IMG/VR virus record: IMGVR_UViG_3300009032_000007
Coordinates: 1-40,360 of that record
Direction: 5' to 3' (one strand)
Source of the DNA: a virus
DNA: 40,360 bases
This document shows positions 853-40,360 of this stretch, piece after piece (the stretch's first letter is position 1; the number at the start of each line of letters is the position of its first letter). The notes under the pieces were generated by a model. It saw only the letters and a list, made by a program, of their open reading frames with translations, was not told where the DNA came from and did no database searches. The translations under genes and the position numbers were made by a program.

Positions 853-1800
853 GTGGCGAACAACATGACCTACATGACCTTCATCGAGAAGGCGGATCTG
901 AGCATCCATAACCTTACGAACGAGGGCGGTTTGCTCGTCCCCGAGCAGGCCCGGGAGTTCATCGAGATCGCGATCGTGGAGAGCGTGTTGCTCAGCATGA
1001 TCACGGTCAAGTCGATGAGCGGCCCGACCTTCGAGCTGTCGAAGATGGGCTTCACGGGGCGCGTGCTCCGTGGTGCGACCGAGAGCCAGGCCCTCGGCGT
1101 GGCGGACCGCTCGAAGCCCGAGCTGGGCAAGGTGCTGCTCCAGACCGTGGAGTTCATCGCCGAAGCCAGGATCCCCTACGGGGCGGTCGAGGACAACGTC
1201 GCTCAGGGCACGTTCGTCGACTACGCAACCAAGCTCCTCGCGCAGGCCGTGGCCCGCGACATGGAAGACGTCGCCGTCAACGGCGACCTGACCTCGTCGG
1301 ACGTCCTCTACAAAAAGATGGACGGATTCCTCAAGCAGATCACGACCCGCGTAATCAACGCCGGTGGCGTGAAGCTGACCAAGAGCGTGTTCGACACCAT
1401 CGTGAAGACGATGCCCTCGCAGTTCTTCCGCGGCGCGAAGAACATGGCGATTTTCACCTCGAAGAACGCCGCGATCGACTACGGCTCTTCGGTCGCGAAC
1501 CGCCAGACGCCCCTCGGCGACAACGCGCTCGTGAAGATGTCCTCCGGCGAGTACATGGGCATCCCCGTCGTGGCGGTGCCGCTCTTCCCCGAGCAGCTCG
1601 GCGTAAACTTGAACGCGACCAACGTGGTCATGGGCGACCCGAAGAACATGGTCGTCGGGATCCAGCGAGAGATCCGGATCGAGACCGACAAGGATATCTC
1701 GGCGCGCGAGTACATCATCGTGGCCACGCTGCGTTTCGACGCGAAGTGGGCCCACGAGCCGGCCGTGGTCAAGGCCACCGGCGTTCTCGCGGCGGCGTAG
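853..1800 (+). CDS. Major capsid protein (HK97-fold type)
   Basis: This 315-residue protein should form the capsid shell. The GTG start is preceded by AGGAAGAG about 6 bases upstream. The N-terminus is helical, followed by 'LLVPEQAREFIEIAIVES' and a segment ending in 'LGVADRSKPELGKVLLQTVE', the usual order of N-arm, E-loop region and P-domain in short HK97-like capsid proteins. 'GIPVVAVPLFPEQLGV' and 'REYIIVATLRFDAKWAHEPA' near the end look like the A-domain and final strands. Size, position after the scaffold-like gene, and the hairpin directly behind it agree with a highly expressed capsid gene. Assignment is by pattern, not by search. Confidence 0.85.
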   Translation: MANNMTYMTFIEKADLSIHNLTNEGGLLVPEQAREFIEIAIVESVLLSMITVKSMSGPTFELSKMGFTGRVLRGATESQALGVADRSKPELGKVLLQTVEFIAEARIPYGAVEDNVAQGTFVDYATKLLAQAVARDMEDVAVNGDLTSSDVLYKKMDGFLKQITTRVINAGGVKLTKSVFDTIVKTMPSQFFRGAKNMAIFTSKNAAIDYGSSVANRQTPLGDNALVKMSSGEYMGIPVVAVPLFPEQLGVNLNATNVVMGDPKNMVVGIQREIRIETDKDISAREYIIVATLRFDAKWAHEPAVVKATGVLAAA

Positions 1801-4894: not shown

Positions 4895-5998
4895 ATGCGC
4901 ATCATCGGTCTGGGCAAGTCGAGCACCCGGCAGATCCCGGTGTTCGACCTCTTCACCATCACAAATGGGCTGATGGTCGATCCCGACTACGTGCAGTTCC
5001 AGATCTTCGACCTGACGACCGAGGACAAAAAAGTCACCCCGGTCCAGGTCTACCCGACGACGCCGGGCAACGCGTCGACCCTCGACCTGAACCCGGTCGA
5101 GCAGGGGGGCCATCGGCTCGGGCTCGCGCACTTCGTGGCGCTCTGGAGCGTGCCCTCGAACGAGCCGGTCGGCTTGCACGAGATCGTCTGGTTCTACGCG
5201 ATCGCCGGCGGGATGGAGGTCGAGGTCCACATCGAGTTCGACGTGGTGAAGGCGCTGGGCGCTGGCATCTACGACGTCTACGCCCTGGTCTCCGACCTGC
5301 GGGCCGAAGACGTGTCGTCCTGCCTGGCGCGGGACATCGACGTCGGTCACCGGCTGATTCTCGCGAAAAAGCTCATCGACGCCATCACGCTGCGGTCGTT
5401 CATCCCGACGTACAAGTCGATCACCCTCGACGGGGTGGGCACGTCCTGCCTCTTCCTGGACGAGGCGATCATCGCCGTCGCGCAGCTCGTGCAAGACGGC
5501 GATGACGTCGACATGTCCGTCGTGAAGGTCGCGAACAGGCACATTACGCAGGGCCTGCTCGCTCCAGACGACCGCAACAACCCCACCATCGAGTTCGCGG
5601 AGTCGCTGCGCTCGCGCCGGCACGTGGGCGTGATCGGCATCGGACCATCCCTGCGCGCGCGCGGCCTGTTCAGGGCGGGGACGCAGAGCGTCAACATCAA
5701 AGGGATCTTCGGCTACACCGATCCGGACCCGGGGTACGCGGTCGGCGTGACGCCCTACATGATCCGGTTCGCGGCGCAGCTCATCGTGATGAGCCAGTTG
5801 CCCAAGCTCGGCGACCTCGACGAGCGATTCAGTCGCCTGAACCACTGGAGGTTCACCGGGGAGACGACCAGGGACCAGAGCTACAGCCTCGGCGCCGGCC
5901 GCCCCGTGTCGACGCTCGACGGCCCGTCGACGGGCGATCCCGAGATCGATGGGATCCTGAAGAGCTTCCTCGCCCCGATGCGGATCCGCACCGTGTGA
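4895..5998 (+). CDS. Probable head-tail adaptor with N-terminal Ig-like domain
   Basis: The protein has 367 residues; the ATG follows TAGGAG closely. Residues about 1-120 resemble a second Ig-like domain ('GLAHFVALWSVPSNEPVGLH'). The middle, from 'DVYALVSDLRAEDV' through a helical stretch to 'SITLDGVGTSCLFLDEAIIA', resembles phage connector (gp6-type adaptor) domains, which attach below the portal. The C-terminal 100 residues ('LSRLNHWRF'-like region, 'GDPEIDGILKSFLAP') are of unknown fold. Placement between capsid and closure/completion genes supports an adaptor role. The domain assignment is by pattern. Confidence 0.6.
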   Translation: MRIIGLGKSSTRQIPVFDLFTITNGLMVDPDYVQFQIFDLTTEDKKVTPVQVYPTTPGNASTLDLNPVEQGGHRLGLAHFVALWSVPSNEPVGLHEIVWFYAIAGGMEVEVHIEFDVVKALGAGIYDVYALVSDLRAEDVSSCLARDIDVGHRLILAKKLIDAITLRSFIPTYKSITLDGVGTSCLFLDEAIIAVAQLVQDGDDVDMSVVKVANRHITQGLLAPDDRNNPTIEFAESLRSRRHVGVIGIGPSLRARGLFRAGTQSVNIKGIFGYTDPDPGYAVGVTPYMIRFAAQLIVMSQLPKLGDLDERFSRLNHWRFTGETTRDQSYSLGAGRPVSTLDGPSTGDPEIDGILKSFLAPMRIRTV

Positions 5999-10313: not shown

Positions 10314-12569
10314 ATGGCCACCGGCCTCTCGTCCGAAGTCACTTTCGATGAAGAAACGCCTGTCGTCAGGCAGATCAGCACCAACGCGAACCTCGCGCTC
10401 GGGATCGTCGGAATTTCTGAGCGCGGCGATTTTGGTGTGCCGATCCAGGCCACCAGCTTCGACGAGTTCAAGAAGAAGTGCGGCTCGTACACCGTCAATT
10501 CGATCGACTGCACCGCTGCGGTCCAGGGCTACTTCGACAACGGCGGGAACCTGCTCTATTTCGCGCGGGCTCTCCACTGTACGGACGCCACCGATCCGAC
10601 CACCAAGACGTCGAACTACGCGACGATCAACCTGATGACGACGTCGGCCGCGCCGACGTCGGGTGTCGCGACCAGCGGTGTCGGGCCATGGGCCCTCGCG
10701 CATGGCCAGACGGTGGTGCTCAAGGTCAATGCGCTCGGCAACCAGACCGGGACGATCTCGGCGACGGCTGCGTCGCGGCAGAGCGGAGCCGCCGGCTCGG
10801 GGTTCGTGCTCGCCGATCTCCAGACGCTGCTCATCAATGTCGACGGGGTCGCACTCCCCCTAAAGACGTTTCACACGGCCGAGTTCTCGAACATCCTCCT
10901 CGCTACCGCGCAGGAGGTGGTGAATTCGCTGAACGCGTTCTTCGCCTCGAACACCGCCGGCTGCGTCGCCACCGTAACGGCCTCTGACCACGTGACGATC
11001 ACGAGCAACCGGAAGGGGTTGGGCTCGGGGGTCAACATCGTCAGCGGCACGGCCAACGCCGGGCTCGGCTTCACCACCGGCAACCAGGCCGGAGGCGGCA
11101 ACGTGTCCAACGTCGCCGTTGTGACCGTGACCGAGGTCATCGCCATCTTCGCCGCCCTCCCGCTCTCGGGCGCGACGGCGACCAACGTTGGAGGGGCGCT
11201 CCGGTTCACCTCGTCGACGACCGGCGGAACGAGCATCGTGCAGCTCATCTCGTCGTCGACGGCGCTGATCGGCTTCGACTTCGCGCAGCACACCGGGCTC
11301 GCAGGAACGCCGGTCGTCAGCGTCCTGGTCGACGCGAAGAGCGACGGCGTGTTCGGCAATGCGCTTCAGGTGCAGGTGCTCGCGCCCACCGACGGCGCTG
11401 CGGACAGGATAAACCTCTACGTCTGGTCGAACGGCGTGGTGAAAGAGCGCTTCTTCAACGTGAGCTTCACGATGACCGACTCGCGCTACATCGAGTCGGT
11501 CATCAACGACTCCGACATCGGAAGCGACCTGATCAAGGTGACCGACCAGGCCCCCGCGGTCCCGGCGCCCGGGAACCTGCCCGCCATCGGCCTGTCGGCG
11601 AACCTCGCCGGCGGCGACGATGGTCTCTCCGGGCTCGTCGACAACGACTTCATCGGTGGCACGTCGACGGGCGGCGATGTGGGCTTCCGCGTCCTCGACG
11701 CGGTCGACATCGACGTGATGATCGTTCCTGGCAAGGCGACGAGCGCCATCCACAACGCGATGGTCACGTACGCCGAGATCACGCGCGCCGGGCTCTGCTT
11801 CTGCATCCTCGACCCCCCGGCGGCGACCAGCGCCGCAGGGATGATCACGTACGTCAAGCAGACGGCGAGCCTCTACCAGCTCACCGAGATGGCCGCGATG
11901 TACTGGCCGCGGATCAAGGTGCTGAATCCGAGCCAGGCCATCTACGGCAGCGGGAAGATGCTTGTCGTCCCGCCGAGCGGGATGCTCGCGGGGCTCTACG
12001 CGCGCGTCGACAGCGCGAAGATCGGTGGGGCGTTCGACCACCCGGCGGGCACCGACCTGAAGTACCTGCCGAAGAACGTGCTCGGGCTGGAGAGCGACGA
12101 GGTGAAGAAGAAGCCGATGCGCGATCTCATCTTCCCCTCGCTGATCAACCCGATCTCGAAGGAAGACGGCCCCTACTTCGTCGACGGCGCGCGCACGCTG
12201 CGCGACAGCGGCAACTGGCCCACGATCGGTCAGCGCCGCGGGATCATCTTCGTCGAGAAGCGCCTGATCCCCGGGTTGGCCTTCATCAGGCACCGGAACA
12301 TCCAGCCGAAGCTGCTCGGATCGGGGACGCGAACGGTCCTCGGCTTCCTCGGGTCGCTCGCGTCGAGCGAAGCCTTCGCCTCGAAGGATCCGAAGAAGGC
12401 CTTCTTCGTGGACTTCGGCCCGGCTCTGAACACCGCCGCGACGGCAAAGCGTCGTACGGTCTACGCGCGCCTCGGAATCGCCGCTGCCGAGCCGGCGGAG
12501 TTCGTCTGCCTGCTGATCTCGCCGGACACGCGTGCACTCGACGAAGAGCTGGCCGCGCTCACGGCATAA
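10314..12569 (+). CDS. Tail sheath protein with a large inserted region
   Basis: The 751-residue protein should form the contractile sheath. AAGGAG lies 5-10 bases before the ATG. The N-terminal part ('NANLALGIVGISERGDFGVP', 'YFDNGGNLLYFARAL') and the C-terminal part ('KEDGPYFVDGARTLRDSGNW', 'FIRHRNIQPKLLG') show typical sheath features, including the conserved region feeding the C-terminal arm. Residues about 112-333 are a Gly/Ala/Thr-rich insertion, which makes the protein longer than the common 400-660. Within it, residues about 161-253 resemble a domain in the Ig-repeat protein encoded at 22518-24395. The insertion probably projects outward from the sheath. Confidence 0.9.
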   Translation: MATGLSSEVTFDEETPVVRQISTNANLALGIVGISERGDFGVPIQATSFDEFKKKCGSYTVNSIDCTAAVQGYFDNGGNLLYFARALHCTDATDPTTKTSNYATINLMTTSAAPTSGVATSGVGPWALAHGQTVVLKVNALGNQTGTISATAASRQSGAAGSGFVLADLQTLLINVDGVALPLKTFHTAEFSNILLATAQEVVNSLNAFFASNTAGCVATVTASDHVTITSNRKGLGSGVNIVSGTANAGLGFTTGNQAGGGNVSNVAVVTVTEVIAIFAALPLSGATATNVGGALRFTSSTTGGTSIVQLISSSTALIGFDFAQHTGLAGTPVVSVLVDAKSDGVFGNALQVQVLAPTDGAADRINLYVWSNGVVKERFFNVSFTMTDSRYIESVINDSDIGSDLIKVTDQAPAVPAPGNLPAIGLSANLAGGDDGLSGLVDNDFIGGTSTGGDVGFRVLDAVDIDVMIVPGKATSAIHNAMVTYAEITRAGLCFCILDPPAATSAAGMITYVKQTASLYQLTEMAAMYWPRIKVLNPSQAIYGSGKMLVVPPSGMLAGLYARVDSAKIGGAFDHPAGTDLKYLPKNVLGLESDEVKKKPMRDLIFPSLINPISKEDGPYFVDGARTLRDSGNWPTIGQRRGIIFVEKRLIPGLAFIRHRNIQPKLLGSGTRTVLGFLGSLASSEAFASKDPKKAFFVDFGPALNTAATAKRRTVYARLGIAAAEPAEFVCLLISPDTRALDEELAALTA

Positions 12570-14584: not shown

Positions 14585-17373
14585 TCGCACTCAACGGCGC
14601 GATCGGTATCGGGCTCGTCATGACCGCCAAGGATCTCGCCACGGGCGTGATGGGCAAGGTCGAGGACAAGTTCAAAAAGATCTACGAGCAGGGGTCGCTC
14701 GCCGGCAAGGCGATGGACGGCGCGTTCGCCGCGTTCAAGGCCGGCACCGCGATCATGGGCGCCGGGATCGGGATCCTGGCCGCGACGGCGGCCGCGGCCG
14801 ACGCCTACGGCGCGATGGACGATGCCCTCGACAAGGTGGCGCTCCACACGCGGCTCACCGCCGACGGCATGGAGGTGCTGGAGGACGCCGCCTACCGCGC
14901 CGGCCTCTCCACGAAGTTCAAGCCCGAGGAGGCCGTCGACGGCTTGGAGGTGCTGGCGAAGAAGTTCAACGACGCCGGCGCCGCCGCGGCGAACATCACG
15001 CCGGTCCTCAACCTCGCGGCGATCTCGATGGGTGACCTCGGCGTCGCGCAGGCGGCGAAGCTCGCGACCGACACGATCACGCAGTTCAACCTGACCGCCG
15101 CGGACACGAGCGACGTCGTCGACACGTTCGCGAAGGCGCAGCAGGTCACCTCGCTGAGCACGAAGGATTTCGGCGGCGCCTTCAAACGCGCCTCGGTCAC
15201 GGCGTCGCAGTTCAATCAGACGCTCGACGACACCCTGATCGGCGTGGGGTTGTTCAAGAGCCGAGGCATGGAGGGCGGCGAGGCCGCCATGCAGTACAGC
15301 CAGTCGCTCCAGAATCTGGCCACCGACACGAAGGCTCAAGCAGAACTTCAGAGCAAGCACGTCGAAGTCTTCGACAAAACGACGAAGAAGATGCGCGGGC
15401 TGACTGACATCCTCGGCGATGTCGTCAAGGCCACGAAGGATATGACGGAGCAGGATAGGACTGCCTTCGTGAGAAAGGCCCTCGGCACGAAGGGCATGGC
15501 CACGTACGACGCCGCGGCCAAGGCGACCTTCAAAACGATGGTCGACGGGAAAGAGGTCACGCTCCAGGGCGCCGAAGCGATCGCCGAGATGACGAAGCAG
15601 ATGGGTGACGCGAAGAACGCCGCCCAAGATCTCACCGACGCAATGCTCGACGACATCGGCGGTCAGCAGGAGATGATCGGCAGCGCGCTCTCGACGATCA
15701 AGACGATGGTCGGCAAGCAGTTCGCGATCGCGCTGGAGCCCGCCGCGCGCGCGGTGGTCGGCATCATCCGCAAGATCGGTACCGTCATCCTCGAAATGCC
15801 CGAGCCGCTGAAGCAGGGCATCGCCAAGTTCGTGATCTTCGCCGGCGTCCTGACGACGGCCGCCGGCGCTCTGCTCGCTGGATCCGCGGGCATCGCGATC
15901 CTGATCCTCGGCCTGAAGATGATCGGCGCGACGATGCTGTCCGTGCTCATCCCCATGCTCGGGTTCGTCGCGATGATCGGGCTGGCCATCGCCGGGATTG
16001 CCGCCCTCCGCTACGCCGTGATGCACAACCTCGGCGGCATCGGCGACTTCATCCACAAGGTGATCGACCGGGTGGTGCTCACGTGGAAGGCGCTCGTCCA
16101 GCTCTTCACCCAGGGCGGCTTCTCGGGTGCGGTGCGCGAGGCGATGGGCGACAAGGCCAACGCGCCCATTCGCGAATTCGCGATCACGGTGTTCCTCTGG
16201 TTCAACCGGATCAAGAACTTCTTCAAGGGCCTGGCCGGCGGGTTCGAGGTCGCCATGCAGGCGGCCCGTCCCGCGTTCGCGGCGTTCGTCGGCGCGCTGG
16301 AGCACCTCGGCCGCATCTTCGGCATCGTGCAGGACGGCCCCGACGTGGCGAAGGGGAAGTTCATCGCGTGGGGCAAGGCCGGCGAGCGGGTCGGCGTGGC
16401 GCTCGGCGCCGTGATGGAGACCATCGTCACCGTGATGACGGCGGTGCTCGACATCGCCTCTGGCGTGGCGTCCGGCTTCTCGTCGATGAGCCCGATCACC
16501 AGCACGCTCGGCTCGTCGCTCGGGGTCCTGTTCGATGCCTTCGGCGAGATCGTCGACGCCATCATGGGCACAGACGGTGCCGTCGGGAACAACCGCAGCG
16601 GCTGGGAGACCCTCGGCCTCGTCATCGGGAAAGTCGTGGGCGCCATCGTGGGCGCCGTGTCGGTGCTGGTCACCGTGGTCGCCGAGGTCGCGGCGATCGT
16701 GGCCGGGGTGATCGGAGCCGTGCGCGCCAACATCAAAATGGCCATCGGGATCATCACGGGCCTGATCGATGTCGTCGTGGCGCTTCTGCACGGCGACTGG
16801 GCCGGCGCGTGGGAGAGCGCGAAGGGCATCGTCTTCAAGACCGTCGAGGGAATCCTCGACATCGTCGGGAGCCTGATCCAGGGCGTCGCCTCGGCCGTCG
16901 ACAAGCTGGGCAAGCTCTTCGGGAAAGACCTCGGGTTCGCGAACAAGGTCGGCGAGATCCGGAGCCAGCTCGTCGGCGCAGCGCGCGATGCTCTCGCGAC
17001 GCAGCAGCAGAAGGACGACGCAGCCAAAGACAAGGCGGCCTCCGACAAAAAAGAGAACCTCGTCGGCGACGGGTCGCGGGCGCGGCCGTTCATCGGTGTC
17101 CCGAACCCCCCCGCCTTCGGGCCCCCGGCCGCCGCCGGAACGGCGCCTGGTGTGGCCGCGACGGCGTCGGCCGCAGCGCCCGCAGCCGGGGACGCTGGCG
17201 CCGCCGCGGCCGCCGCGACCGGCGCCGCGGTCGCCGCCGCGCTCCGGTCCGCGCCCCCGGCGGTCGTCTCTGCGAAGCTCGTGTGCGACGGCGAGGTGAT
17301 GGCCAAGGTCGTCACCAAGTACCAGCGCGCCGCGGCCTCCAGTGATGGTACTCCTACGGCGATCGACGAATAG
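14584..17373 (+). CDS. Tape measure protein, probable ATC start
   Basis: From ATC 14584 the product has 929 residues (917 from ATG 14620). GGAGG at 14573-14577 is 6 bases before the ATC, and the N-terminus then reads 'IALNGAIGIGLVMTAKDLAT', as tape measure proteins commonly begin M-A-L-N-G-A-x-x-x-x-L-x-M. ATG 14620 lacks a ribosome site. The protein has long helical parts, a central hydrophobic region (about residues 395-475) with membrane-like segments ('GSAGIAILILGLKMIGATML'), many Ala/Gly/Val-rich helices, and a disordered Ala/Pro-rich end. It sets tail length and is released on injection. No peptidase motif was seen. Confidence 0.85.
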   Translation: MALNGAIGIGLVMTAKDLATGVMGKVEDKFKKIYEQGSLAGKAMDGAFAAFKAGTAIMGAGIGILAATAAAADAYGAMDDALDKVALHTRLTADGMEVLEDAAYRAGLSTKFKPEEAVDGLEVLAKKFNDAGAAAANITPVLNLAAISMGDLGVAQAAKLATDTITQFNLTAADTSDVVDTFAKAQQVTSLSTKDFGGAFKRASVTASQFNQTLDDTLIGVGLFKSRGMEGGEAAMQYSQSLQNLATDTKAQAELQSKHVEVFDKTTKKMRGLTDILGDVVKATKDMTEQDRTAFVRKALGTKGMATYDAAAKATFKTMVDGKEVTLQGAEAIAEMTKQMGDAKNAAQDLTDAMLDDIGGQQEMIGSALSTIKTMVGKQFAIALEPAARAVVGIIRKIGTVILEMPEPLKQGIAKFVIFAGVLTTAAGALLAGSAGIAILILGLKMIGATMLSVLIPMLGFVAMIGLAIAGIAALRYAVMHNLGGIGDFIHKVIDRVVLTWKALVQLFTQGGFSGAVREAMGDKANAPIREFAITVFLWFNRIKNFFKGLAGGFEVAMQAARPAFAAFVGALEHLGRIFGIVQDGPDVAKGKFIAWGKAGERVGVALGAVMETIVTVMTAVLDIASGVASGFSSMSPITSTLGSSLGVLFDAFGEIVDAIMGTDGAVGNNRSGWETLGLVIGKVVGAIVGAVSVLVTVVAEVAAIVAGVIGAVRANIKMAIGIITGLIDVVVALLHGDWAGAWESAKGIVFKTVEGILDIVGSLIQGVASAVDKLGKLFGKDLGFANKVGEIRSQLVGAARDALATQQQKDDAAKDKAASDKKENLVGDGSRARPFIGVPNPPAFGPPAAAGTAPGVAATASAAAPAAGDAGAAAAAATGAAVAAALRSAPPAVVSAKLVCDGEVMAKVVTKYQRAAASSDGTPTAIDE

Positions 17374-24890: not shown

Positions 24891-26453
24891 ATGTCGATCT
24901 TGCAGCGAGACAACGACTTCACGAACAAGGATTTCGACTCCTTGTCCGCGCGCTTCCAGAACGCGCTCGCGAGCGCGTTCCCGGACTGGAGCGAGAAGTC
25001 GCGGGCGAACTTCGGCAACATCCTCGCTGAGCAACCGTCGCACATTGGCGACGTGGTGCTCTATTACGTCGACCGGGCTGCGCGCGAGAGCCGCATCGGC
25101 ACCGCGCAGCTCCGCCGGAGCATTCTCGGGATCTGCAAGCTCATCGGCTTCAGCCCTGCCGGCGCCGCCGCGGCGTCTGTTCTCGTCGTCTTCACCCTGG
25201 CGCTCTCGCTCCAGGGAACGCTGACCCTGCCGCGCGGAACGCACGTGAAGACGGCGCAGGTGACCGAGCCTGTTCGGTTCCAGCTCCTCGAAGATCTCGT
25301 TTTTCTTCCCGGCGAGACCGTCAAGACGGCGCTGGTCGAGCACTCGGATTTTGCGACCGATTCCTTCTCTTCGACCGGCCTCAGCGGGCAGCGCTTCTCG
25401 CTGAAGAGTACGCCGTACCTCGACGAATCGGCGGTCATCGTCGCGGCGAACGGGACGTACACGATCGTCAGCAACTTCCTGAAGTCGTCGATCACCAACC
25501 CGAACCAGGGGCGCGATTGCGTCGTCGTGGTCGACCAGGCCGACCGCGCCACGCTGCGCTTCGGCAACGGCATCAACGGCGCGATCCCCGTGGGAACCGT
25601 GACGATCGTCTACAAGGTCGGCGGCGGGGTGAAGGGGCGCCTCGAACCGAACACGCTGACGAAACTCGACGCCGGCCCGTTCAAAGACACGCTCGGCAAC
25701 GGCGCGACGATCACCGTCAACAACCCGTTGAAGACCGAGGGGGCCGCCGATCGGCTTTCTGTCGAGCAGATCCGGCTCCTCGCGCCGGAGTCGATCCGCG
25801 TCATCGAGCGCGCGACGGCGCGCGAGGACTACGAGATCGTCGCGCGCTCGGTCGCGGGCGTCGCGCGCTCATTGCACCTGACGCGCAACGAAGACGTCGC
25901 GATCGACGAGAACGCCGGGATCACCTTCATCGTGCCGGCCGGCGGAGGGATCCCCACCCAGGCGCTGCTCGATCTGGTGCTTTCCCGCTTCCAACCGGTC
26001 GCCGGCTACCCGAAGCCCACGCATCCCAAGTCGAACACCTACAAGCTCGCGGTGCAGCGGCCGAGGTACCTCTCCGTGGACGTGGCGGTGAAGATCTTCA
26101 AGCGCACGGGGGTGACGGGGGCGGTGGCGAAGGCGAACATCCTCGCCGCGCTCGCGCGCTTCTTCGCGATCAGCGTCGACAAGGATGGGAACCCGTACGT
26201 CAACGGCACACCGAACCCGCTCATCGACTTCGGGTGGGCGCTGAAAGACGTCGACGGGAACCCGAGCGACACGCTGGCCTACAGCGACGTGATGGAGAGC
26301 GTTCGCGACGCTGTCGGGGTCCGCAAGCTGTCGGCGTTCGCGAGCGACTGCACGCTGAACCTGGCGCACGCCGACGTGCAGATCGGCCACTTCGAGTTCC
26401 CCATCCTTGGTGAGGTCACCATCGTCGACGGGGACACCGGGGCCACGCTGTGA
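24891..26453 (+). CDS. Baseplate J-like protein
   Basis: The 520-residue protein begins with 'DNDFTNKDFDSLSARFQNAL' and 'NFGNILAEQPSHIGDVVLYY', typical of gpJ/gp6-like wedge proteins, and contains 'DQADRATLRFGNGINGAIPV' and 'GTVTIVYKVGGGVKGRL', the conserved R-F-G-x-G-x-x-G-x-x-P-x-G core. Later come 'ATAREDYEIVARSVAGVARS' and a C-terminal domain. It forms the wedge ring around the hub. The ATG follows TGAGGG; its stop overlaps the next GTG. Confidence 0.88.
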   Translation: MSILQRDNDFTNKDFDSLSARFQNALASAFPDWSEKSRANFGNILAEQPSHIGDVVLYYVDRAARESRIGTAQLRRSILGICKLIGFSPAGAAAASVLVVFTLALSLQGTLTLPRGTHVKTAQVTEPVRFQLLEDLVFLPGETVKTALVEHSDFATDSFSSTGLSGQRFSLKSTPYLDESAVIVAANGTYTIVSNFLKSSITNPNQGRDCVVVVDQADRATLRFGNGINGAIPVGTVTIVYKVGGGVKGRLEPNTLTKLDAGPFKDTLGNGATITVNNPLKTEGAADRLSVEQIRLLAPESIRVIERATAREDYEIVARSVAGVARSLHLTRNEDVAIDENAGITFIVPAGGGIPTQALLDLVLSRFQPVAGYPKPTHPKSNTYKLAVQRPRYLSVDVAVKIFKRTGVTGAVAKANILAALARFFAISVDKDGNPYVNGTPNPLIDFGWALKDVDGNPSDTLAYSDVMESVRDAVGVRKLSAFASDCTLNLAHADVQIGHFEFPILGEVTIVDGDTGATL

Positions 26454-31731: not shown

Positions 31732-33603
31732 ATGTCTGGCCGACGCGATTATTTCTACCTGCAACAGGTCACCGACGGCGAACTCGACTCGGGTTTCAAT
31801 GAGCTGGAGAAGGCCGATCGGGCGATGATCCTCGCGCTCGGGATGGTCGGCATCACGACGAACCTGGACGTGGTGCAGCACGGCGCGGGGGACAGTACCG
31901 TCGACATCAGCGGGCTCGGGAAGGGCCACGACAAACTGGGCCAGTTCCTGAACGTGCCCAGCAACCAGAACGTCGATCTCTCCGTCGACTCGAATGGCCA
32001 AACCACGGCGATCTCGGCGTTCGGCCTGCACAGGATCGTCAGCGTTTTCCTGAAGTTCAACCGGACCCTCTCGGATCCGCGGGTCGACGGCAACTCGGAC
32101 ACCGTCTACTTCGTGCGCGACGAGTCGTTCACCTTCCTCGTCATCCAGGGGGCGGAGTCTGCCGGGATCCTCACGCCTCCCGCGCTTCAGACCGACGCGC
32201 TCTTGCTGGCCGACATCACGCGCGACTTCGGTGTCGCCGCGATCCTGAACAACCACATCAGCTACGCGCGGCGCGAAGACGCCTTCGGGATCTCGAACAC
32301 GCCGAGGTCCATCCGGGCCGGCACGGCATCTGGGGCGATGACCCAGATGCTCCAGTTCTACTCGAACCACGTCAACGGGGTCGCCGACCAGCACCCGGCC
32401 GGGTCTTTGACCTACCTGGGAAGCGGGCCGTGGGCAAACGCCTCGACGATCGCCGCCGGCACCGTCGAAGCGACGTTCGACACGATGGTCGCGACGCTCG
32501 CCAGTTCGTCGTCGGGGAACAGCGGGGCGCACCTGCTCGGCAGCGATGCCATCGTCGGGACGGCCAATACGCTCGCCGCCGCAAGCATCTTCACGCAACT
32601 GGGCCGCTTGAAGCTGGCATCGAATCACGAGTACGGCGGGGGCGGCACGTGGGCGGATGGCACCACCAATCCGGCCGCCTCCTCCGAGGCGCAGCTCGAC
32701 AAGATCATCTCCGACCTCGCCCCGACGACGGGCGGGGCGAGCGGGGCCCATCGCCTCGGATCCGCGCAGATAGCCGGCGGCAGCACCTACCTGGCCGCGG
32801 GGACGCTGTCCTCCCAGATTACCTCGCTGAAGTCGGCGGCGAACCTCGACCAGCCGGCGCGCACGACCTGGCTCGGCGGGCGCACCAACCCGGCGACGCG
32901 AGTCGACCTGGCGATCGACAAGATCATCACCGATCTCGGCGCGTCGGACGCGTCCGACGACGGCGCCGAGCGCATCGGATTCGCACCGTCGGGCAATATC
33001 GCGGCGACTGACGTCGCCGCGGCGATTCGCTTTCTCGACGCCGAGAAGGGAGGGCTTGCGATCTCGAACACGTGGGCGCTCCAGCAGACCTTCAGCGGCG
33101 GCATCACCGCGAACGGTAGCGCGGTGGTCAACAACACCTTGGCCGTCTCGGGAGTGTCGACGTTCAGCGGTAGCGCGGTGGTCAACAACACCTTGACCGT
33201 CTCGGGAGTGTCGACGTTCAACGGAGCGAACGCCGTCAACAACTCGACCACATACGCGGGGTCGACCGCCTGGCAGGCGATGCGCGGGCTCGACCGCCGC
33301 AGCTCGGGGGCAAGCACGTCGATCTCGATCGCCGCCGACTACGTCATCGTGGGAAGCCCGACGCTCCCGACGACTGTCGACGTGACTCGCCCGTCCGCGG
33401 CGACGGCGATCGGGACGATGATCACGGTCTACGCGATCGAGGAGACCGTCTCGAACTACGTCTTCCAGGACAACGGGACGACGATGGCGACCATGCCCCC
33501 CGGACCGCGCTCACCGAAGCAGTGGATCATGTTTGTTTGGTCGGGAACGGCCTGGATGGTCGGTCCGGCGTCGAGCACGATCACGATCGCCGCGGGCTAC
33601 TGA
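31732..33603 (+). CDS. Tail fibre-like protein
   Basis: The 623-residue protein has GGAGAGG upstream. It starts with 'YFYLQQVTDGELDSGFNELE', resembling fibre N-termini that dock on the baseplate. The middle holds diverged segments with 'SGAHLLGSDAI', 'SGAHRLGSAQI' and 'DGAERIGFAPS', about 65-70 residues apart. Residues about 461-497 have an 18-residue repeat ('GSAVVNNTLAVSGVSTFS') from a 54-bp DNA duplication, typical of trimeric beta fibres. The C-terminus 'TMPPGPRSPKQWIMFVWSGT' may be a tip domain. It is the last rightward late gene and abuts the next, convergent gene. Confidence 0.75.
   Translation: MSGRRDYFYLQQVTDGELDSGFNELEKADRAMILALGMVGITTNLDVVQHGAGDSTVDISGLGKGHDKLGQFLNVPSNQNVDLSVDSNGQTTAISAFGLHRIVSVFLKFNRTLSDPRVDGNSDTVYFVRDESFTFLVIQGAESAGILTPPALQTDALLLADITRDFGVAAILNNHISYARREDAFGISNTPRSIRAGTASGAMTQMLQFYSNHVNGVADQHPAGSLTYLGSGPWANASTIAAGTVEATFDTMVATLASSSSGNSGAHLLGSDAIVGTANTLAAASIFTQLGRLKLASNHEYGGGGTWADGTTNPAASSEAQLDKIISDLAPTTGGASGAHRLGSAQIAGGSTYLAAGTLSSQITSLKSAANLDQPARTTWLGGRTNPATRVDLAIDKIITDLGASDASDDGAERIGFAPSGNIAATDVAAAIRFLDAEKGGLAISNTWALQQTFSGGITANGSAVVNNTLAVSGVSTFSGSAVVNNTLTVSGVSTFNGANAVNNSTTYAGSTAWQAMRGLDRRSSGASTSISIAADYVIVGSPTLPTTVDVTRPSAATAIGTMITVYAIEETVSNYVFQDNGTTMATMPPGPRSPKQWIMFVWSGTAWMVGPASSTITIAAGY
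33114..33221 (+). repeat. 54-bp tandem duplication in the fibre gene
   Basis: Two units (33114-33167, 33168-33221) differ at a few positions and keep the frame, adding 18 residues. The DNA similarity indicates a recent duplication. Confidence 0.85.
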
Positions 33604-33941: not shown

Positions 33942-34109
33942 GTCTTTGGCGGAAAGTACCCCCGAACCAGAGGTGCCCCGCTACTTTCGATCGCTTCCCC
34001 CCGGCACTACGCGCGGCTCGTCGTCGAGCAGGGGTCCAATTCGACTGCCTTGGCGCCCCCTGCTGTGCTGGTCACCTACACGCTGACCAACATCGACGAC
34101 GGGTATTAA
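33942..34109 (+). pseudogene. Possible stranded C-terminal gene fragment
   Basis: After a stop at about 33939 the rightward frame stays open to a TAA at 34107-34109 that interlocks with the opposite lipoprotein's stop. The last residues ('LVVEQGSNSTALAPPAVLVT', then 'YTLTNIDDGY') read like the end of a beta structural protein. No usable start was seen, so it may be the remnant of a tail gene or chance. Confidence 0.2.
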
Positions 34110-34768
34110 TTCGACGACGGCGTCACGGTCAGCGTCGTCCCGCAGACCCACCCGTTCTTGGCCTGGCCGCCGCCCCACTCCTGCGCGAAGATGATGTAGT
34201 AGTACGAATCACCGACGACCTCGTTCAGCGGCATGACGATGTCGTGCGGCTGGCTGAAGGCGGCCGCCTTCTCGGCGCCCGGGTTGTAGACCGAGTAGGG
34301 GATCGCGTAGGGATCCCACGCGATCCCACCGATCTTGGTCTCGACCCCGTTGCGGCCGACCTTGCGAAATTCGAGGTACGGCAGCAGCTCGTCGTCGAGC
34401 GACGTATGCACGGCCGGCGCGATCCGGACCGTGATCGACGTCAGCGTCGATCCCATCGGCGCGAGGATCGGCTGCGTCGCGCCGCTGCCCGCCGGCACGA
34501 TGCCTCCGGTGACGCCGGTCGGCACGTACTTCATGCTCCCGTCGTTCAGGGTGAACGGCGTGTTCAGATAGGGCACCTGGCTGGCGCACCGCAGCGTCAG
34601 GGGCCCGGTGCTGATCAGCCCGGAGCCATCTCTGATCTCGGTGGACCCGGCGGTATCGGGGTCTTCGATCTGGATCTCGTCCTCGCGAGTCACAGAAGAG
34701 AGGCACCCGAGCGTGGCGACGGCGAGCGACAGCGTCAGGCAATAAAACGGCAAAGCGATACGGTTCAT
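34106..34768 (-). CDS. Lipoprotein of unknown function
   Basis: The product has 220 residues; GGGAGA precedes the ATG. The signal peptide 'MNRIALPFYCLTLSLAVATL' ends at a relaxed lipobox (T-L-G-C, C22). The mature domain is beta-rich: 'LTLRCASQVPYLNTPFTLND', 'GSTLTSITVRIAP' and 'VVGDSYYYIIFAQEWGGG', with two Cys that may pair. It is exported and probably anchored in the outer membrane. No family was recognised. Phage-borne lipoproteins commonly act in superinfection exclusion, but here that is only a possibility. Confidence 0.7.
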   Translation of the reverse strand: MNRIALPFYCLTLSLAVATLGCLSSVTREDEIQIEDPDTAGSTEIRDGSGLISTGPLTLRCASQVPYLNTPFTLNDGSMKYVPTGVTGGIVPAGSGATQPILAPMGSTLTSITVRIAPAVHTSLDDELLPYLEFRKVGRNGVETKIGGIAWDPYAIPYSVYNPGAEKAAAFSQPHDIVMPLNEVVGDSYYYIIFAQEWGGGQAKNGWVCGTTLTVTPSSN

Positions 34769-35130: not shown

Positions 35131-35454
35131 TCAGCGGACGAGAAAAACAAGCAGCGTGCACTCGACGAGCAGCACGAGCGCGAGCCCTAACGCGCGCTTG
35201 TGCACGTGCCAGAACGATGGCTTTTGAGGCATGAGGGTGATGCGCGATTCGCGCGGAGCCTCGTCGTGCTCCACCGACTCGTTCACCTCGAAAGGCCAGG
35301 GCCGCGTCAGCGCCCGCGGGCGCTGACGCGGTGGCGCGTACCGCAGCGACGAGCCATCCCCGACCCTGGTCGTCGGACGGTCATCTGGTCTCTCGACGAG
35401 GGTCGGTGTCGACGAAGACCGCTCACGCATAATCTCCAGGATATCACCGCTCAT
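35131..35454 (-). CDS. Small C-terminally anchored membrane protein
   Basis: The product has 107 residues. The N-terminal 85 are charged and probably disordered; the C-terminus 'ALGLALVLLVECTLLVFLVR' is a single membrane segment, preceded by basic residues ('HVHKR'). The ATG overlaps the stop of the gene before (4 bp). A 30-bp perfect palindrome (35302-35331) lies inside and encodes the Arg-rich 'RQRPRALTR' part. A lysis or membrane-signalling role is possible. Family unknown. Confidence 0.6.
   Translation of the reverse strand: MSGDILEIMRERSSSTPTLVERPDDRPTTRVGDGSSLRYAPPRQRPRALTRPWPFEVNESVEHDEAPRESRITLMPQKPSFWHVHKRALGLALVLLVECTLLVFLVR
35302..35331 (+). repeat. 30-bp perfect palindrome inside a coding region
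   Basis: CCGCGTCAGCGCCCG is followed without spacer by its reverse complement. It is unrelated in sequence to the other palindromes here. Confidence 0.85.
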
Positions 35455-35944
35455 CGAGGCGGCGCCTCACACTTTCGCGAAGGCGCGCGAGCTGCTCGGC
35501 GGAGAACGGCGGTTGACGCGGCGGCGCTGGCGCCTCGTCGAGCTTCGGAAGGTTCGAGCGCGCGAAGGCGGCGTTCGCGGCCGTGACATGCTGAACGAAC
35601 CGATCTCCCGTCTGCGGATGGCGGCAGTCTCCGCACGACGTGCCCCCCGTCGCCGGGTAGAAGTAGAAGGCGGTCTCGCCGCAGATCTGGCAGAAGGCGC
35701 CGGCCTTGCTGGCGAACCAGCGCGCGGCGAGGCGCCTGAAGAGCGCCAGGTCGCCCTCGGGAGCCACGCGGTACCAGCGGGTCAGGTACTCGACCTCGTG
35801 GAACTGCCCCCCGCCTCGCCCGCCGATGCAGTAGGCGTAGCCGTCCCCGCGGTTCGGCAAGATCGACATCACCATCATCGAGGGGAAGTCGCTCGCGTTC
35901 CCTCGGCGATCGACCAGCACGTCGCCGGGCTTGATCAGCTCCAC
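35451..35944 (-). CDS. Zinc-ribbon-like protein, N-terminus probably frameshifted
   Basis: From GTG 35944 the product has 164-165 residues, with C-x-x-C pairs in 'FCQICGE' and 'SCGDCRH' that could bind zinc, and a helical, Arg-rich end. There is no ribosome site before the GTG, and the same frame upstream still reads protein-like ('ACHLPAIDIFTAEHLAVELI') up to a TGA. An ATG at 36023 lies in another frame; the two would join if the GAAC repeat (36006-36017) had one more unit. The gene is thus either broken or switchable. The function may be nucleic-acid or protein binding. Confidence 0.55.
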
Positions 35945-36074: not shown

Positions 36075-36133
36075 GAATCCCTCGCGTTTCCCCAGGCGAC
36101 GATAATGGTCACCTGGGGAAACGCGAGGGATTC
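36075..36133 (-). terminator. 22-bp inverted repeat at the holin-like gene end
   Basis: Perfect 22-bp arms (36075-36096, 36112-36133) enclose 15 bases and overlap the stop of the gene at 36109. TTTTT follows on the plus strand, none on the minus strand. It may stop transcription in both directions, or be a protein-binding site. Confidence 0.6.
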
Positions 36134-36432: not shown

Positions 36433-37758
36433 TCACGGGATAGCGAAATCGAGCAGCGCGCTCGCCGTCGTGGTCATCCCGGCCACCGCGGTCACCTGGA
36501 CCGGGCTGCTGTTCACCGGATCCCCCGAGCCAGCGATGAAGCCGCCGTGGACGGTGTCCATGTAGCAGGAGAGCACGTAGTCGCCCGGCGTCACGTCGGC
36601 GAGCGTGAAGCTGGCCGTGGCCGCGGACGTCGCGAGCGGCACGTCCACGCGCGAGCGGTAGTACACGGGGCGCGCTCCGGGCTTCGGAAGAGCGCCATCC
36701 CAGTCGGTCGCGCGGAAGAGCGAGCAGTAGATCGGGTCGCCCGCGGCGGCATCGCCCTTGATCCCGGGGATGGTGTCGTTCCTGGACAGGCTCACCTCCA
36801 CGGTGGCGCCGCCCGCGCCGACGGGAACGCTGTCCGGGTACCAGCAGTCGCACGCCGCGGTCCCGCCGCCGCTCGCGCACATCAGGCTCGCCGTCGCCGG
36901 CCAGTAGTAGCCGATGGCGAAGCACATCTCCGCCGGGTAGCCGAGGCGGTTAGGGCCGCTGTTCGACCAGTCGCACTTGACGTGCAGCGCGTCGGCCGTG
37001 CCGACGAGCTTTCCGTCATCGAACGTGGTGATCGCAGGGTTGTCCCAATGCGCCGTAGTGTAGAGCGGCTGACTCGCGCCGCCGCCGCCCGGAAGCAGAT
37101 CCACCGAAACGAGCGTGCCGAAGCGGTGCATGTGGCCGAACATGGTGTGAATCGGCAGGTCCGACGGGGGCTTGCAGGTGACCTCCGCCGTGGCAACCCC
37201 GTTGGGCGGGACGTCGATGTTGCCTGTCCCGACGTAGTACGTAGAGGCTCTTTCCTTGACCGTCCCGGCCGTGGCGTAGAGCGCCGTGAACTCGCTCTTG
37301 ACCTCGATCGGCTTCGAGGTGGTGTTGATGTAGTGCGTCTCCATCACGTACTGCTGATGGGCATTGACGTGAAAGCCCACGCCGTCGGGGAAGGTCGTTG
37401 TCTCGGCCGGCAGACCGGAGGCGAGGATCTGGCTCCACCCCGGCTGCCCTCCCTGGGAGCAAAGCGCGGGAGGGAGATCGACGTTGTGGTCGAGCGTGTA
37501 GACGATGAGGTGATGGCCACCCTCGCTCTGTGCCGAGGTGAAGCGCGTGATGTCCTCGGCATCGGTGTTGTCGCCGCGCACGTACGAACACATGATCAGC
37601 TCCTTTCCAGCGCCGACGGTGAACGTCCCCGCGGAGAATGACTCCTCCCGGATCGCGGGCGGGGTGCCGGTGGTAGATCCGCCGCTCCCGGGATCGTCCC
37701 CAGAGCACCCGACGAACGAGACGAGCAGTGAAACGATGGCGAGGATCGATTTGTGCAT
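36433..37758 (-). CDS. Lipoprotein with two-copper (PHM/DBM-like) monooxygenase domain
   Basis: The ATG at 37758 follows AGAGG; the product has 441 residues. The signal peptide 'MHKSILAIVSLLVSFVGCSG' has a lipobox at C18. The core carries an H-H pair (H82/H83 in 'GGHHLIVY'), H142 in 'METHYINTT', H-x-H (H209/H211 in 'FGHMHRFGT') and M278 in 'AEMCF'. In peptidylglycine alpha-hydroxylating monooxygenase the copper ligands are H107/H108/H172 and H242/H244/M314; the spacings here (59, 67, 67) nearly match those (64, 70, 70). A C-terminal beta domain (about 380-441) follows. The enzyme would hydroxylate an unknown substrate at the cell surface. Such lipoproteins are known from myxobacterial genomes. 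Confidence 0.75.
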   Translation of the reverse strand: MHKSILAIVSLLVSFVGCSGDDPGSGGSTTGTPPAIREESFSAGTFTVGAGKELIMCSYVRGDNTDAEDITRFTSAQSEGGHHLIVYTLDHNVDLPPALCSQGGQPGWSQILASGLPAETTTFPDGVGFHVNAHQQYVMETHYINTTSKPIEVKSEFTALYATAGTVKERASTYYVGTGNIDVPPNGVATAEVTCKPPSDLPIHTMFGHMHRFGTLVSVDLLPGGGGASQPLYTTAHWDNPAITTFDDGKLVGTADALHVKCDWSNSGPNRLGYPAEMCFAIGYYWPATASLMCASGGGTAACDCWYPDSVPVGAGGATVEVSLSRNDTIPGIKGDAAAGDPIYCSLFRATDWDGALPKPGARPVYYRSRVDVPLATSAATASFTLADVTPGDYVLSCYMDTVHGGFIAGSGDPVNSSPVQVTAVAGMTTTASALLDFAIP

Positions 37759-37860: not shown

Positions 37861-37910
37861 CCAAGGGGCTATTGGCATACGCAGATCTGCGTATGCCAAT
37901 AGCCCCTTGG
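37861..37910 (+). repeat. 50-bp perfect palindrome
   Basis: A 25-base arm (37861-37885, starting CCAAGGGGCT and ending ACGCAGA) is followed without spacer by its exact reverse complement. It lies about 100 bp upstream of the lipoprotein ATG at 37758, with no T-tract on either side. The rest of the 37759-38049 gap shows only a ribosome site and small hairpins. Confidence 0.9.
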
Positions 37911-38004: not shown

Positions 38005-38048
38005 CGGCGGGTAATGTATGCCTTTCGGCAAAAGCATACACCCCGCCG
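38005..38048 (-). terminator. Terminator-like hairpin after the small-gene operon
   Basis: Inner arms GTATGC/GCATAC with a short T:A extension and the loop CGGC are enclosed by a G/C-rich outer stem (38005-38012 with 38040-38048, one bulge). It directly follows the original stop codon of the gene at 38050. Confidence 0.55.
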
Positions 38049-38049
38049 A

Positions 38050-38326
38050 TCACGCCCCCTCCGACGGGTCGCCGAACAGGTTGAGCTGACCCTTCGGCCG
38101 CTTGATCGCGACGATCAGCGCCTCGGCGATCGCGTCGGTGCGCGCTTGCCCCTTGAGCGAGGCATCGATACTCGCCGACACCGCGGGCAGAAGCGCTTTC
38201 ACCTGCTCCAGGCAGAAGCGCTTTCACCTGCTCCAGGCAGAAGGTGTAGACAGCGTCTTTCAACGCCGGATCGCTCTGGATCGCGGCGTGAACTCGCCAG
38301 GCATACGTTTTCGTCAGATCCGTCAT
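38050..38326 (-). pseudogene. Small gene broken by a 25-bp tandem duplication
   Basis: The ATG at 38326 overlaps the previous stop (ATGA). The first part reads 'MTDLTKTYAWRVHAAIQSDP' and 'FCLEQVKALLP'. Then a 25-bp unit is duplicated (38186-38235), shifting the frame so that it runs on without sense. Removing one unit restores 'AVSASIDASLKGQARTDAIA' and an end '...LNLFGDPSEGA' with stop at 38050, a helical protein of 83 residues. Function unknown; it ends an operon of four coupled genes. Confidence 0.7.
38186..38243 (+). repeat. 25-bp tandem duplication plus 8-bp partial unit
   Basis: Two exact 25-bp units (38186-38210, 38211-38235) are followed by GGCAGAAG, the first 8 bases of the unit. 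The original sequence would have had one unit flanked by these 8-bp direct repeats, a classic slippage site. Confidence 0.9.
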
Positions 38327-38655
38327 GGCAATACCCCGAACGTCTCGGCGGCGTAGCTGAGAACGACTGAGGCTCCCCGGAGCTTCACCCCCTCGACGCG
38401 CGCCTTGATCACCATGTATCTCCTGCACGGTTCGTACCCGAACAGGCACTCGACAGCGCGGGACCTCGCCGGCGTGAAGAGCAGGAACCATCCAGGTACC
38501 TGCCACCATGAGAGCGTCTTCCGCATCTCGGCGAGCCGGAGATAGGTCACGAGCGCATCTCGTAGGGTGGGGGGCAGAGTCGGCATGTAGAGAATGGCCA
38601 CGGTCGCATTCCTCGAAGCAGCCGCGACGAGGTCGGGCATGTTGATCTGGTTCAC
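38323..38655 (-). CDS. Small protein of unknown function
   Basis: GTG 38655 overlaps the stop of the gene before (GTGA) and gives 110 residues; ATG 38640 is an alternative. The product reads 'NATVAILYMPTLPPTLRDAL', 'MRKTLSWWQVPGWFLLFTPA' and 'RYMVIKARVEGVKLRGASVV', a mixed alpha/beta pattern without membrane segments. Both ends overlap neighbours by 4 bp, so it belongs to a translationally coupled early-type operon. No family was recognised. Confidence 0.65.
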   Translation of the reverse strand: MNQINMPDLVAAASRNATVAILYMPTLPPTLRDALVTYLRLAEMRKTLSWWQVPGWFLLFTPARSRAVECLFGYEPCRRYMVIKARVEGVKLRGASVVLSYAAETFGVLP

Positions 38656-38867
38656 TGGGTCGCGTCCATGGCGGCGAGCGTCGCGGGCGAGATCTCGCCC
38701 CACGTCTCGGCGACCTCGACACGCAGGAAGCACTTCGTGCACTCGTACGCGAGGCGCGTTCTCTTGCCTCCCGAGCAGCCGCGCCGCTCCAGGTGTCCGT
38801 GGCGCTTCATCGGCAGGCCACAGCACACGAGGATGGTCGTGATCTTGGTCGTGATGTCGTCTTTCAT
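38652..38867 (-). CDS. Small cysteine-containing protein (possible zinc ribbon)
   Basis: The 71-residue product begins 'MKDDITTKITTILVCCGLPM' and has Cys at 15, 16, 31, 43 and 46 (the last two in 'YECTKCFLRVEV'). The first Cys with C43/C46 could form a small zinc ribbon. It overlaps both neighbours by 4 bp (ATGA and GTGA). The short size and operon context suggest a phage regulatory or host-interaction protein; this is not shown. Confidence 0.65.
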   Translation of the reverse strand: MKDDITTKITTILVCCGLPMKRHGHLERRGCSGGKRTRLAYECTKCFLRVEVAETWGEISPATLAAMDATQ

Positions 38868-39199
38868 GAAGGTTCCGTCGGGTCCGAGAGGGTGAGAACC
38901 CAGCACCAGCGCGCTGCGGGGATCCGCAGAATCAGCTGCGGCGCAGGCGTCGACTCGTGCCACACGTCGACCTCCTTGTGGTTGAGCCAGTCGGAAGTGA
39001 GCTTGTGCACCTCCGCCATCTGCTGGATGGGTAGGACCCCCAGCAGCGGATGCGCGACGACGTTGTGGGCGATCCAGAGGGCGTGGTGTCGCAGTCGCGG
39101 GTGCGGTTTCCCGTCTGCGATGAAGGCGGCCAGCCTCTGCTCGTAGCGCTCCCAACTCGTCTGCGCGCCGGCACGTGCCGGCGCATCTTCAAAGAACAT
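38864..39199 (-). CDS. Conserved-type small phage protein with 'HN-x-x-AHP' motif
   Basis: The 111-residue protein has a helical N-terminus ('WERYEQRLAAFIADGKPHPR') and the striking block 'LWIAHNVVAHPLLGVLP' followed by 'EVHKLTSDWLNHKE'. W-x-x-H-N-x-x-A-H-P-L followed by a later H is a pattern I have seen in small uncharacterised phage proteins; the repeated His could bind metal. AGAGG lies before the ATG. It heads the coupled operon running to 38050. Confidence 0.65.
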   Translation of the reverse strand: MFFEDAPARAGAQTSWERYEQRLAAFIADGKPHPRLRHHALWIAHNVVAHPLLGVLPIQQMAEVHKLTSDWLNHKEVDVWHESTPAPQLILRIPAARWCWVLTLSDPTEPS

Positions 39200-39247: not shown

Positions 39248-39270
39248 GACGTTTGCTCACTACAAACGTC
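39248..39270 (-). terminator. Hairpin over the SbcC-like gene's stop codon
   Basis: Arms GACGTTTG and CAAACGTC (8 bp) enclose 7 bases containing the TAG stop. No long T-tract follows, so it may be a weak terminator or an RNA-stabilising stem. Confidence 0.4.
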
Positions 39271-40360
39271 CCGGGCTGGCCGTCGGGGACTCGACGGTGA
39301 TCTTGCCGCCGTGAACCCGGATGACGGTGTCGGCCATCTTGATCACGTCGGGGCGATGCGAGACGAACAGCACCTTGCTGGCCTTCGCCAGCTTCACGGC
39401 GTGACGCAGCATGTCCATGAAGATCGGGCCGTTCTCTTCGTCGAGCCCGTCGCCGCTCTCGTCGCGGATCAGGGTGGCGCCGACCTGGCCCGACCTGCGG
39501 CACCCGAGCACGGAGATCGCGTCGGTGATCGCCTCGCCGACGATGACCTTCTCCCCCCCGCTCAGGTACTCGCCCGGGATCGTGATGTTCTTCGTGGCGT
39601 CGTAGACGTTGACGATGCAGTCCTCGATCTCGCCCTTCCCGCGCGACCGTTCCCGCGTCGTTTTGATGTCGATGGTCCAGCGGGGGCCGTGGCACGTGCG
39701 CAGGATCAGGTTGGCCAGCGCCGATAGATCGGGCCCGGCCGCGTCGATCTCCAGGGCCTGCATCTCGGCCAGGTCCCCGAGGATGTGCTCGGCATCGGCG
39801 AGCACAGACGCCTTCTGGCGTCGTTGCTCGGTCATGTCTTCGACCAGGCTCGCCGCGGCGCGCGCGGTTTCGAGCTGCTCATCGAGGCGAACCGCCGCGC
39901 CGATGGCGGCGTCGAGCACCACCTGCTTGTCGAGCACGTCAGCCTCCGCGCGCGCGACGTCTCCCAAGCTCGGGCCATCGGCGCCGCCGAGAGCGGGAAG
40001 CTCGGCGAGCCGCCCGGTCAGGGAATCCACAGCGATCGTCTCGGCGGCTTCGGTGGGCAGCAGCTCGGCGATACGAGCCTCTGCATTGGCCAGCGGTGCG
40101 AGAAACGAGGCGTATTGCTCCAGGCTCGCATCCTCGGCGCGGTGCCGCGCGATCCTGTCCTCGATCGCGCTACAGCGGATCTTCTCGGCTGCCGCGGTCT
40201 GGGCTGCCTCGGCGATCTCCTGGGTTGCACGAGCGATCGCAGCCTCTTCGGTGGCGATCGCGGTCTCCTCGGCGGCGATCGCCTCTTCGGCGGCGTCGAT
40301 CTCGCCCTGGCGCGCGGCGAGGCGCTCGGCGGCCGCGAGCGCCTCGCGCGCCTGATCCAG
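39260..40360 (-). CDS. SbcC/Rad50-like ATPase, C-terminal part (5' truncated)
   Basis: The frame is open to the right edge, so only 366 residues are seen. The first 180 are an Ala/Glu-rich coiled coil with many 'EE-AIA' heptads. The ATPase lobe has the ABC signature 'YLSGGEKVIVGEAI', a Walker B with D-E in 'ATLIRDESGDGLDEENG' including the D-loop, and an H-loop 'VLFVSHRPDV'. This order is that of SbcC, Rad50 and T4 gp46, which with a nuclease partner process DNA ends and hairpins. The Walker A half and any SbcD-like gene lie outside the window. A RecN- or SMC-like protein is an alternative. Confidence 0.8.
   Translation of the reverse strand: MDQAREALAAAERLAARQGEIDAAEEAIAAEETAIATEEAAIARATQEIAEAAQTAAAEKIRCSAIEDRIARHRAEDASLEQYASFLAPLANAEARIAELLPTEAAETIAVDSLTGRLAELPALGGADGPSLGDVARAEADVLDKQVVLDAAIGAAVRLDEQLETARAAASLVEDMTEQRRQKASVLADAEHILGDLAEMQALEIDAAGPDLSALANLILRTCHGPRWTIDIKTTRERSRGKGEIEDCIVNVYDATKNITIPGEYLSGGEKVIVGEAITDAISVLGCRRSGQVGATLIRDESGDGLDEENGPIFMDMLRHAVKLAKASKVLFVSHRPDVIKMADTVIRVHGGKITVESPTASPGRL

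Follow-up and report, generated by a model that had tools for sequence, protein, structure and literature searches.

The window analysed here, the whole of an IMG/VR record of 40,360 bases, raises the question of whether a phage can carry a complete two-copper monooxygenase of the DBH/PHM family, whose animal members make noradrenaline and amidate peptide hormones. The candidate is a 441-aa protein beginning MHKSILAIVSLLVSFVGC (ORF 37758..36433, minus strand). We chose the start at 37758 over the first ATG of the ORF at 38037, because both the signal sequence and the homology begin at 37758. A first-pass annotation made from the sequence had described a phage-linked lipoprotein with the copper ligands of peptidylglycine alpha-hydroxylating monooxygenase (PHM). 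The positions of the features are collected in Table 1.

Comparison with Pfam returned both halves of the DBH/PHM family in the correct order along the protein, PF01082 (E 2.4e-4, 21.7 bits against a cut-off of 30) followed by PF03712 (E 6e-4, 19.8 bits against a cut-off of 23), each below its cut-off. The 46-member family profile matched DBH (E 4.3e-36) and PHM (E 1.2e-33) in the PDB, and searches of PDB, phage and plasmid sequences with the single window sequence gave no relative. Among the 46 members, PF03712 is found in 42 and PF01082 in 14 at E<=0.01, and none of the 46 matches an NCBIfam model. The AlphaFold model has a pLDDT of about 95 over residues 37-295, lower near 100-110. The predicted model, with its two-domain beta-sandwich core, superposes on PHM 6ala_A (Z 24.6, 263 residues, 3.1 A) and on DBH 4zel_A (Z 24.8, 275 residues, 3.2 A). 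DBH/PHM structures match the model at Z 20.0-24.8, with 16-18% identity to the window protein in these rows, and the best match outside them is PNGase F, at Z 8.4. Comparison with the viral structure library yielded only weak matches (TM-scores up to 0.46). Since the double jelly-roll fold of PHM and PNGase F is also found in some virus capsid proteins, as described in PMC8812541, we take distant capsid structure matches as a shared fold only. The DOMON domain of DBH has no match among the Pfam results, and the core starts at about residue 37, after the signal. Judged by the family profile, the window protein is homologous to DBH and PHM.

The ligands named in the first-pass annotation, H82, H83, H142, H209, H211 and M278, are all in place, in the same order as the DBH ligands H262, H263, H333, H412, H414 and M487 described in PMC4846438. 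By tblastn, 92 ORFs matched the window protein before identical sequences were merged, and the column counts refer to 65 rows, including the window protein, that passed the profile thresholds after profile iteration. Of the 47 rows selected by the DNA motif scan described below, all keep H142, and all but one, which has a gap, keep H82/H83; the HxH and M columns of these rows are kept by the selection itself and are not independent. Alignment A1, made of the window protein and 45 of the 47 relatives (the incomplete L038 and L094 were left out), has C262, E277, C279 and the six ligands invariant in its 46 rows, the HxH and EMC partly by selection. The ligands are also kept in all 17 relatives from the protein search, seven of which carry the DNA motif of the scan and one of which duplicates a scanned locus, and the ten relatives free of motif selection all keep the six columns. 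The six-ligand pattern in the window protein is not due to chance, and the PHM-like fold with a full ligand set claimed at first pass is upheld.

The likeness does not extend to identity with PHM. At the columns of R240, N316 and Y318, which we take to be the peptide-binding residues of PHM, the window protein has F207, F280 and I282, and across the 46 rows Arg never occurs at the first of these columns nor Asn at the second, while Tyr occurs twice at the third. PHM proper, with its peptide amidation, was therefore rejected as the identity of the protein. The fold and the ligands make the window protein a DBH/PHM superfamily member, and the pocket columns indicate that it is not a PHM.

The N-terminus bears out part of what had been claimed for it. 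A signal sequence ending in a cysteine is present, but its SFVGC fits a lipobox only approximately, at position -3. The Cys18 column holds Cys in 35 of the 65 aligned rows and a gap in 15. At the other end of the protein, the extension of residues 300-441 has a weak fn3_3 Pfam match (E 0.024) and, folded alone, gave no confident model (mean pLDDT 49).

Table 1. Features of the window, with the strand and the basis of each assignment.
Feature	Position	Strand	Basis or remark
SU10-like major capsid protein	853..1800	+	PF17236 E 1e-4, 22.4 bits vs cut-off 24.1; 51% to G177:C211
Tail sheath	10314..12569	+	phrog_15814 E 1.8e-140; phrog_17610 tail sheath E 5.4e-36
Tape measure protein	14620..17373	+	
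Baseplate wedge protein	24891..26453	+	phrog_6 E 9.3e-28
Last gene of tail module	31732..33603	+	final tail gene in the colinear stretch of four related elements
Small Cys-rich putative lipoprotein, 106 aa	33604..33924	-	no PHROG
Putative lipoprotein, 220 aa	34106..34768	-	no PHROG
166-aa protein	35444..35944	-	two sub-cut-off Pfam matches; no PHROG, no phage match
Hairpin with 29-nt arms, downstream of gene	36075..36133	.	z -12.45
PHM/DBH-like two-copper monooxygenase family lipoprotein (putative)	36433..37758	-	441 aa; Pfam, profile, ligand conservation, predicted fold
C-terminal extension, residues 300-441	36436..36861	-	common to Byssovorax relative; models low-confidence
M278, CuM ligand in E-M-C motif (by homology)	36925..36927	-	sequence, alignment
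H209-M-H211, CuM ligands (by homology)	37126..37134	-	sequence, alignment
H142, third CuH ligand (by homology)	37333..37335	-	sequence, alignment
H82-H83, CuH ligands (by homology)	37510..37515	-	sequence, alignment, DBH H262/H263
Cys18, presumed lipidated	37705..37707	-	sequence; SFVGC, approximate lipobox
Perfect palindrome of 50 nt, upstream of gene by about 100 nt	37861..37910	.	z -9.99
167-aa ORF	38323..38826	-	no PHROG
111-aa protein	38864..39199	-	no PHROG, no phage match
SbcC-like ATPase, phage type, C-terminal part	39260..40360	-	runs off contig; phrog_77 E 1.4e-10

From its remaining genes, the window is a phage with a contractile tail whose family occurs in Polyangiales genomes, and it appears to be a virus of soil myxobacteria. 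Besides the structural genes of Table 1, the window has fibre genes. The only other record of this phage that we found has 51,106 bases (IMGVR_UViG_3300027878_000179, G001); it is 99.99-100% identical to window positions 1-34768 and reaches 16.3 kb further left than the window, where it adds a portal and a head protein. That head protein (L003:11803-15489, 1228 aa) combines inorganic-pyrophosphatase-like and XkdF-like serine protease domains, and another single phage protein (L003:1185-2249) has a DUF488 followed by a SLOG-type (YAcAr) domain, its first part having a relative in G177:C211. Tail sheath matches occur in 33 of the 183 genomes of the order sampled here, and the tail module is colinear in the genomes G076, G092 (at two places), G034, G114 and G177. 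The nearest related element, in a genome of the same order, is the 69.6-kb contig G177:C211 (L177, L182-L184), which has a portal, a capsid, an integrase and a large terminase; its integrase indicates that the phage lineage can be temperate. No integrase was found among the searched proteins of the window's own phage, and no PHM-like protein among the ORFs of at least 80 aa in the related loci L147-L184 (E<=1e-3), most of which are partial.

Relatives of the protein occur commonly on chromosomes of Myxococcota. A scan of the species-genome collection for the DNA motif HMHxxG...EMC gave at least 119 stretches, and the titles of 62 of the 80 matches listed carry myxobacterial names. All twelve of the genomes preselected for motif loci have DBH/PHM-like matches at E<=0.001, from 2 to 29 per genome. 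Myxococcota, to which most of the loci L007-L145 belong, show a strong expansion of the DBH/PHM-like family, and many of its members have lipoprotein-like N-termini. Single-protein scans of GTDB genomes and of IMG/VR returned no relative, and motif patterns were needed. The nearest relative, from a Byssovorax MAG (G003, the genome to which locus L022 belongs), is 61-62% identical over residues 9-441, has HEH as its HxH, and also has residues 300-441. In the tree the two proteins are sisters with support of 100/100. G003 alone reached E<=1e-40 among the 183 genomes of its order (Polyangiales) and E<=1e-35 among 377 genomes sampled from the phylum, the two samples overlapping. The relative's 17-kb contig encodes glutamate dehydrogenase, cytidylyltransferase, undecaprenyl diphosphate synthase, heme oxygenase, FMN reductase, DUF1501 and an AraC-type regulator, a gene content that indicates a chromosome. 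A captured host gene was one of two options raised at first pass, and the chromosomal position of this relative in a Polyangiales MAG upholds it: the gene was probably taken from a host. Its codon usage is intermediate between those of phage and host and is not decisive.

On its contig, the gene has the tail module on one side and a phage-type SbcC gene on the other, and its strand is opposite to that of the late genes. The SbcC-like protein is 38.5% identical to one of Leptospira phage LE1 over 42% of the query, and its relatives occur at five places in four of the 183 genomes of the order. Four of these places had enough flank to be examined, and all four have a SbcD, integrase, helicase or terminase-like gene nearby. 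PHROG gave no match for four small ORFs (35.1, 35.4, 38.3 and 38.9 kb) nor for the two putative lipoproteins. The one at 34106-34768 has a stretch of about 50 aa in common (49%) with a tail-adjacent prophage protein of the Byssovorax MAG (L153:9106-10275), and a collagen-like lipoprotein ORF adjoins the latter on the opposite strand.

Hairpins with arms of at least 20 nt number four in the 57 kb of this phage, two of which flank the gene; there are four in 873 kb of the loci L007-L125 and none in the 314 kb made up by 27 loci that are related or bear SbcC. Arms of 20-29 nt are also found at L003:1002-1042 and 5053-5101, in the left arm of the phage. The SbcC family is known for palindrome-specific nucleases, and a phage rich in long hairpins here also encodes an SbcC-like protein. 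The flanking hairpins are without T-tracts. Terminator-like sites are no commoner than in shuffles (2 as against 2.7), and no sigma-70-like promoter was found. A 25-nt unit is duplicated exactly in tandem at 38186-38235, upstream of the gene.

The linkage of the gene to the phage, which the first-pass annotation had assumed by treating the window as one phage genome, stands in so far as the window is a phage, with tail genes on one side of the gene and a phage-type SbcC on the other; the chief doubt comes from the second record. That record breaks off precisely where a start codon begins, at 34768, 1.7 kb before the 3' end of the gene, and its end looks like trimming at a predicted host border. 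A prophage-host border at about 33.6-34.8 kb, which would make the gene an ordinary chromosomal gene of a Polyangiales host, is also suggested by the chromosomal position of the nearest relative, by the frequency of the DBH/PHM-like family in host chromosomes, and by the arrangement in G076, where (from the translations) the tail genes give way to lysis and small genes and, within about 5 kb, to host-like genes. However, a 5-kb host stretch between two phage parts needs two borders, and what lies beyond the gene is of phage type: the SbcC-like gene has relatives in only four of the 183 genomes of the order and in phage LE1, SbcD, integrase, helicase or terminase-like genes lie near its relatives at the four places examined, and the long hairpins that flank the gene recur in the left arm of the phage. 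We consider such a border unlikely. A chimeric assembly, with a host gene attached to a phage contig, is very improbable: the junction is seen in one contig only, and the perfect palindrome at 37861-37910 would be an error-prone place for assemblies, but window positions 1-34768 are confirmed by the second record and the GC content is even (66.4 and 66.7%). On balance the gene is, in our judgement, likely to be linked to the phage.

A phage-borne protein need not be a working monooxygenase, and it might instead be a copper or ligand binder, a surface decoy or an exclusion lipoprotein. The substrate-pocket columns are unlike those of PHM, the divergence from PHM/DBH is large at the identities given above, and phage exclusion lipoproteins exist, such as Ltp as described in PMC3952083. 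Against a non-enzymatic protein, the six ligands and C262, E277 and C279 are invariant across the 46 members (for HxH and EMC, in part through selection), and every member free of motif selection keeps the ligands; we regard this alternative as rather improbable, a little more so than the border. The explanation that we favour, with somewhat better than even confidence, is that the gene is a host-derived accessory gene for a predicted envelope-anchored two-copper monooxygenase, carried by a contractile-tailed, temperate-type phage lineage of Polyangiales (Myxococcota).

DBH requires a pair of type 2 coppers, with ascorbate supplying two electrons, and its CuM is thought to bind O2 and its CuH to pass electrons, as described in PMC4846438. 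In the accessory enzyme that we favour, H82, H83 and H142 would hold the electron-transfer copper and H209, H211 and M278 the oxygen-binding copper. The exported protein would be lipid-anchored through Cys18 and, by analogy with DBH, might hydroxylate a substrate in the envelope or beyond it. This would alter the surface or the surroundings of the lysogen or the infected cell. We suppose that the gene is expressed in lysogens and benefits the phage. Export of the protein, a coding strand opposite to that of the late genes and the hairpins on either side lead us to prefer, as an inference, a change of the lysogen's surface as its role. A broader and doubtful extension is that myxobacterial phages repeatedly acquired two-copper monooxygenases and expose them in the form of lipoproteins, which would oxidise the lysogen's envelope or secreted peptides and change phage adsorption or predation, an enzymatic and oxygen-dependent kind of lysogenic conversion.

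A pattern scan of IMG/VR gave four stretches, and one of them is a true relative, on a contig of 136,226 bases (IMGVR_UViG_3300010400_000001, L187). Its protein is a complete family member, a predicted lipoprotein of 282 aa with an LIGC lipobox, HH, H, HMH and EMC, and matches the family profile at E 1.7e-38; the start and stop of its gene overlap the neighbouring frames as ATGA. The other three stretches had no profile match and were rejected, as were all ten stretches of a further pattern scan. The contig has matches to DnaB-like helicase, integrase, RNase H, tail-fibre and endolysin-type proteins, and no portal, major capsid protein or terminase appeared among the 21 of its proteins that went through a family search. 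It may also hold host flank, because a magnesium-chelatase-like stretch lies near its left end. It has little in common with the window's phage. Its PHM-like protein sits on a long branch at an unsure position in the tree, and at E<=1e-15 in the 377 genomes it has only two matches, at 33 and 30%, both in G003. If both contigs are sound, the uptake into phages probably happened at least twice. A single-protein search of 50,697 phage records gave no match. The early view that such a gene is very unusual among phages holds as far as we searched, with none in those records and one relative in IMG/VR; the scan patterns reach only part of the family, and rarity in viruses is poorly measured by them. 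We found no description of the bacterial DBH/PHM-like family or of a phage copy in the titles and abstract openings of the open-licence papers that we searched.

If the favoured explanation is true, phages can carry a whole, stand-alone copper monooxygenase of a family known for its part in hormone and neurotransmitter chemistry, and the enzyme probably acts outside the cytoplasm. Lysogenic conversion would thereby gain a new chemistry, and the phage enzyme would give a testable handle on a family abundant in Myxococcota.

Like DBH and PHM (PF01082 and PF03712), the window protein has the two-domain core, the six ligands in order, the EMC motif and the predicted fold; unlike them, it has a signal sequence with Cys18, an extra C-terminal part and no DOMON match, and is bacterial and probably phage-borne. 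Phages carrying pmoC, the host gene of a copper-dependent monooxygenase, are described in PMC7674155. PmoC, from another enzyme family, is a single membrane subunit, and the phage genes are more than 86-90% like host genes in that description (PMC7674155), whereas the window protein is a stand-alone member of the DBH/PHM family. The chromosomal PHM-like proteins of Myxococcota belong to the same family, have the same ligands and are in many cases lipoprotein-like, and the window gene differs from theirs in its adjoining phage genes. To our knowledge, Ltp of phage TP-J34 is not an enzyme. It is likewise a phage-encoded surface lipoprotein and has a role in exclusion according to PMC3952083, whereas the role of the window protein is a proposed one. 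Host-derived accessory genes in phages are known, and the unusual part here would be the predicted DBH/PHM-family chemistry.
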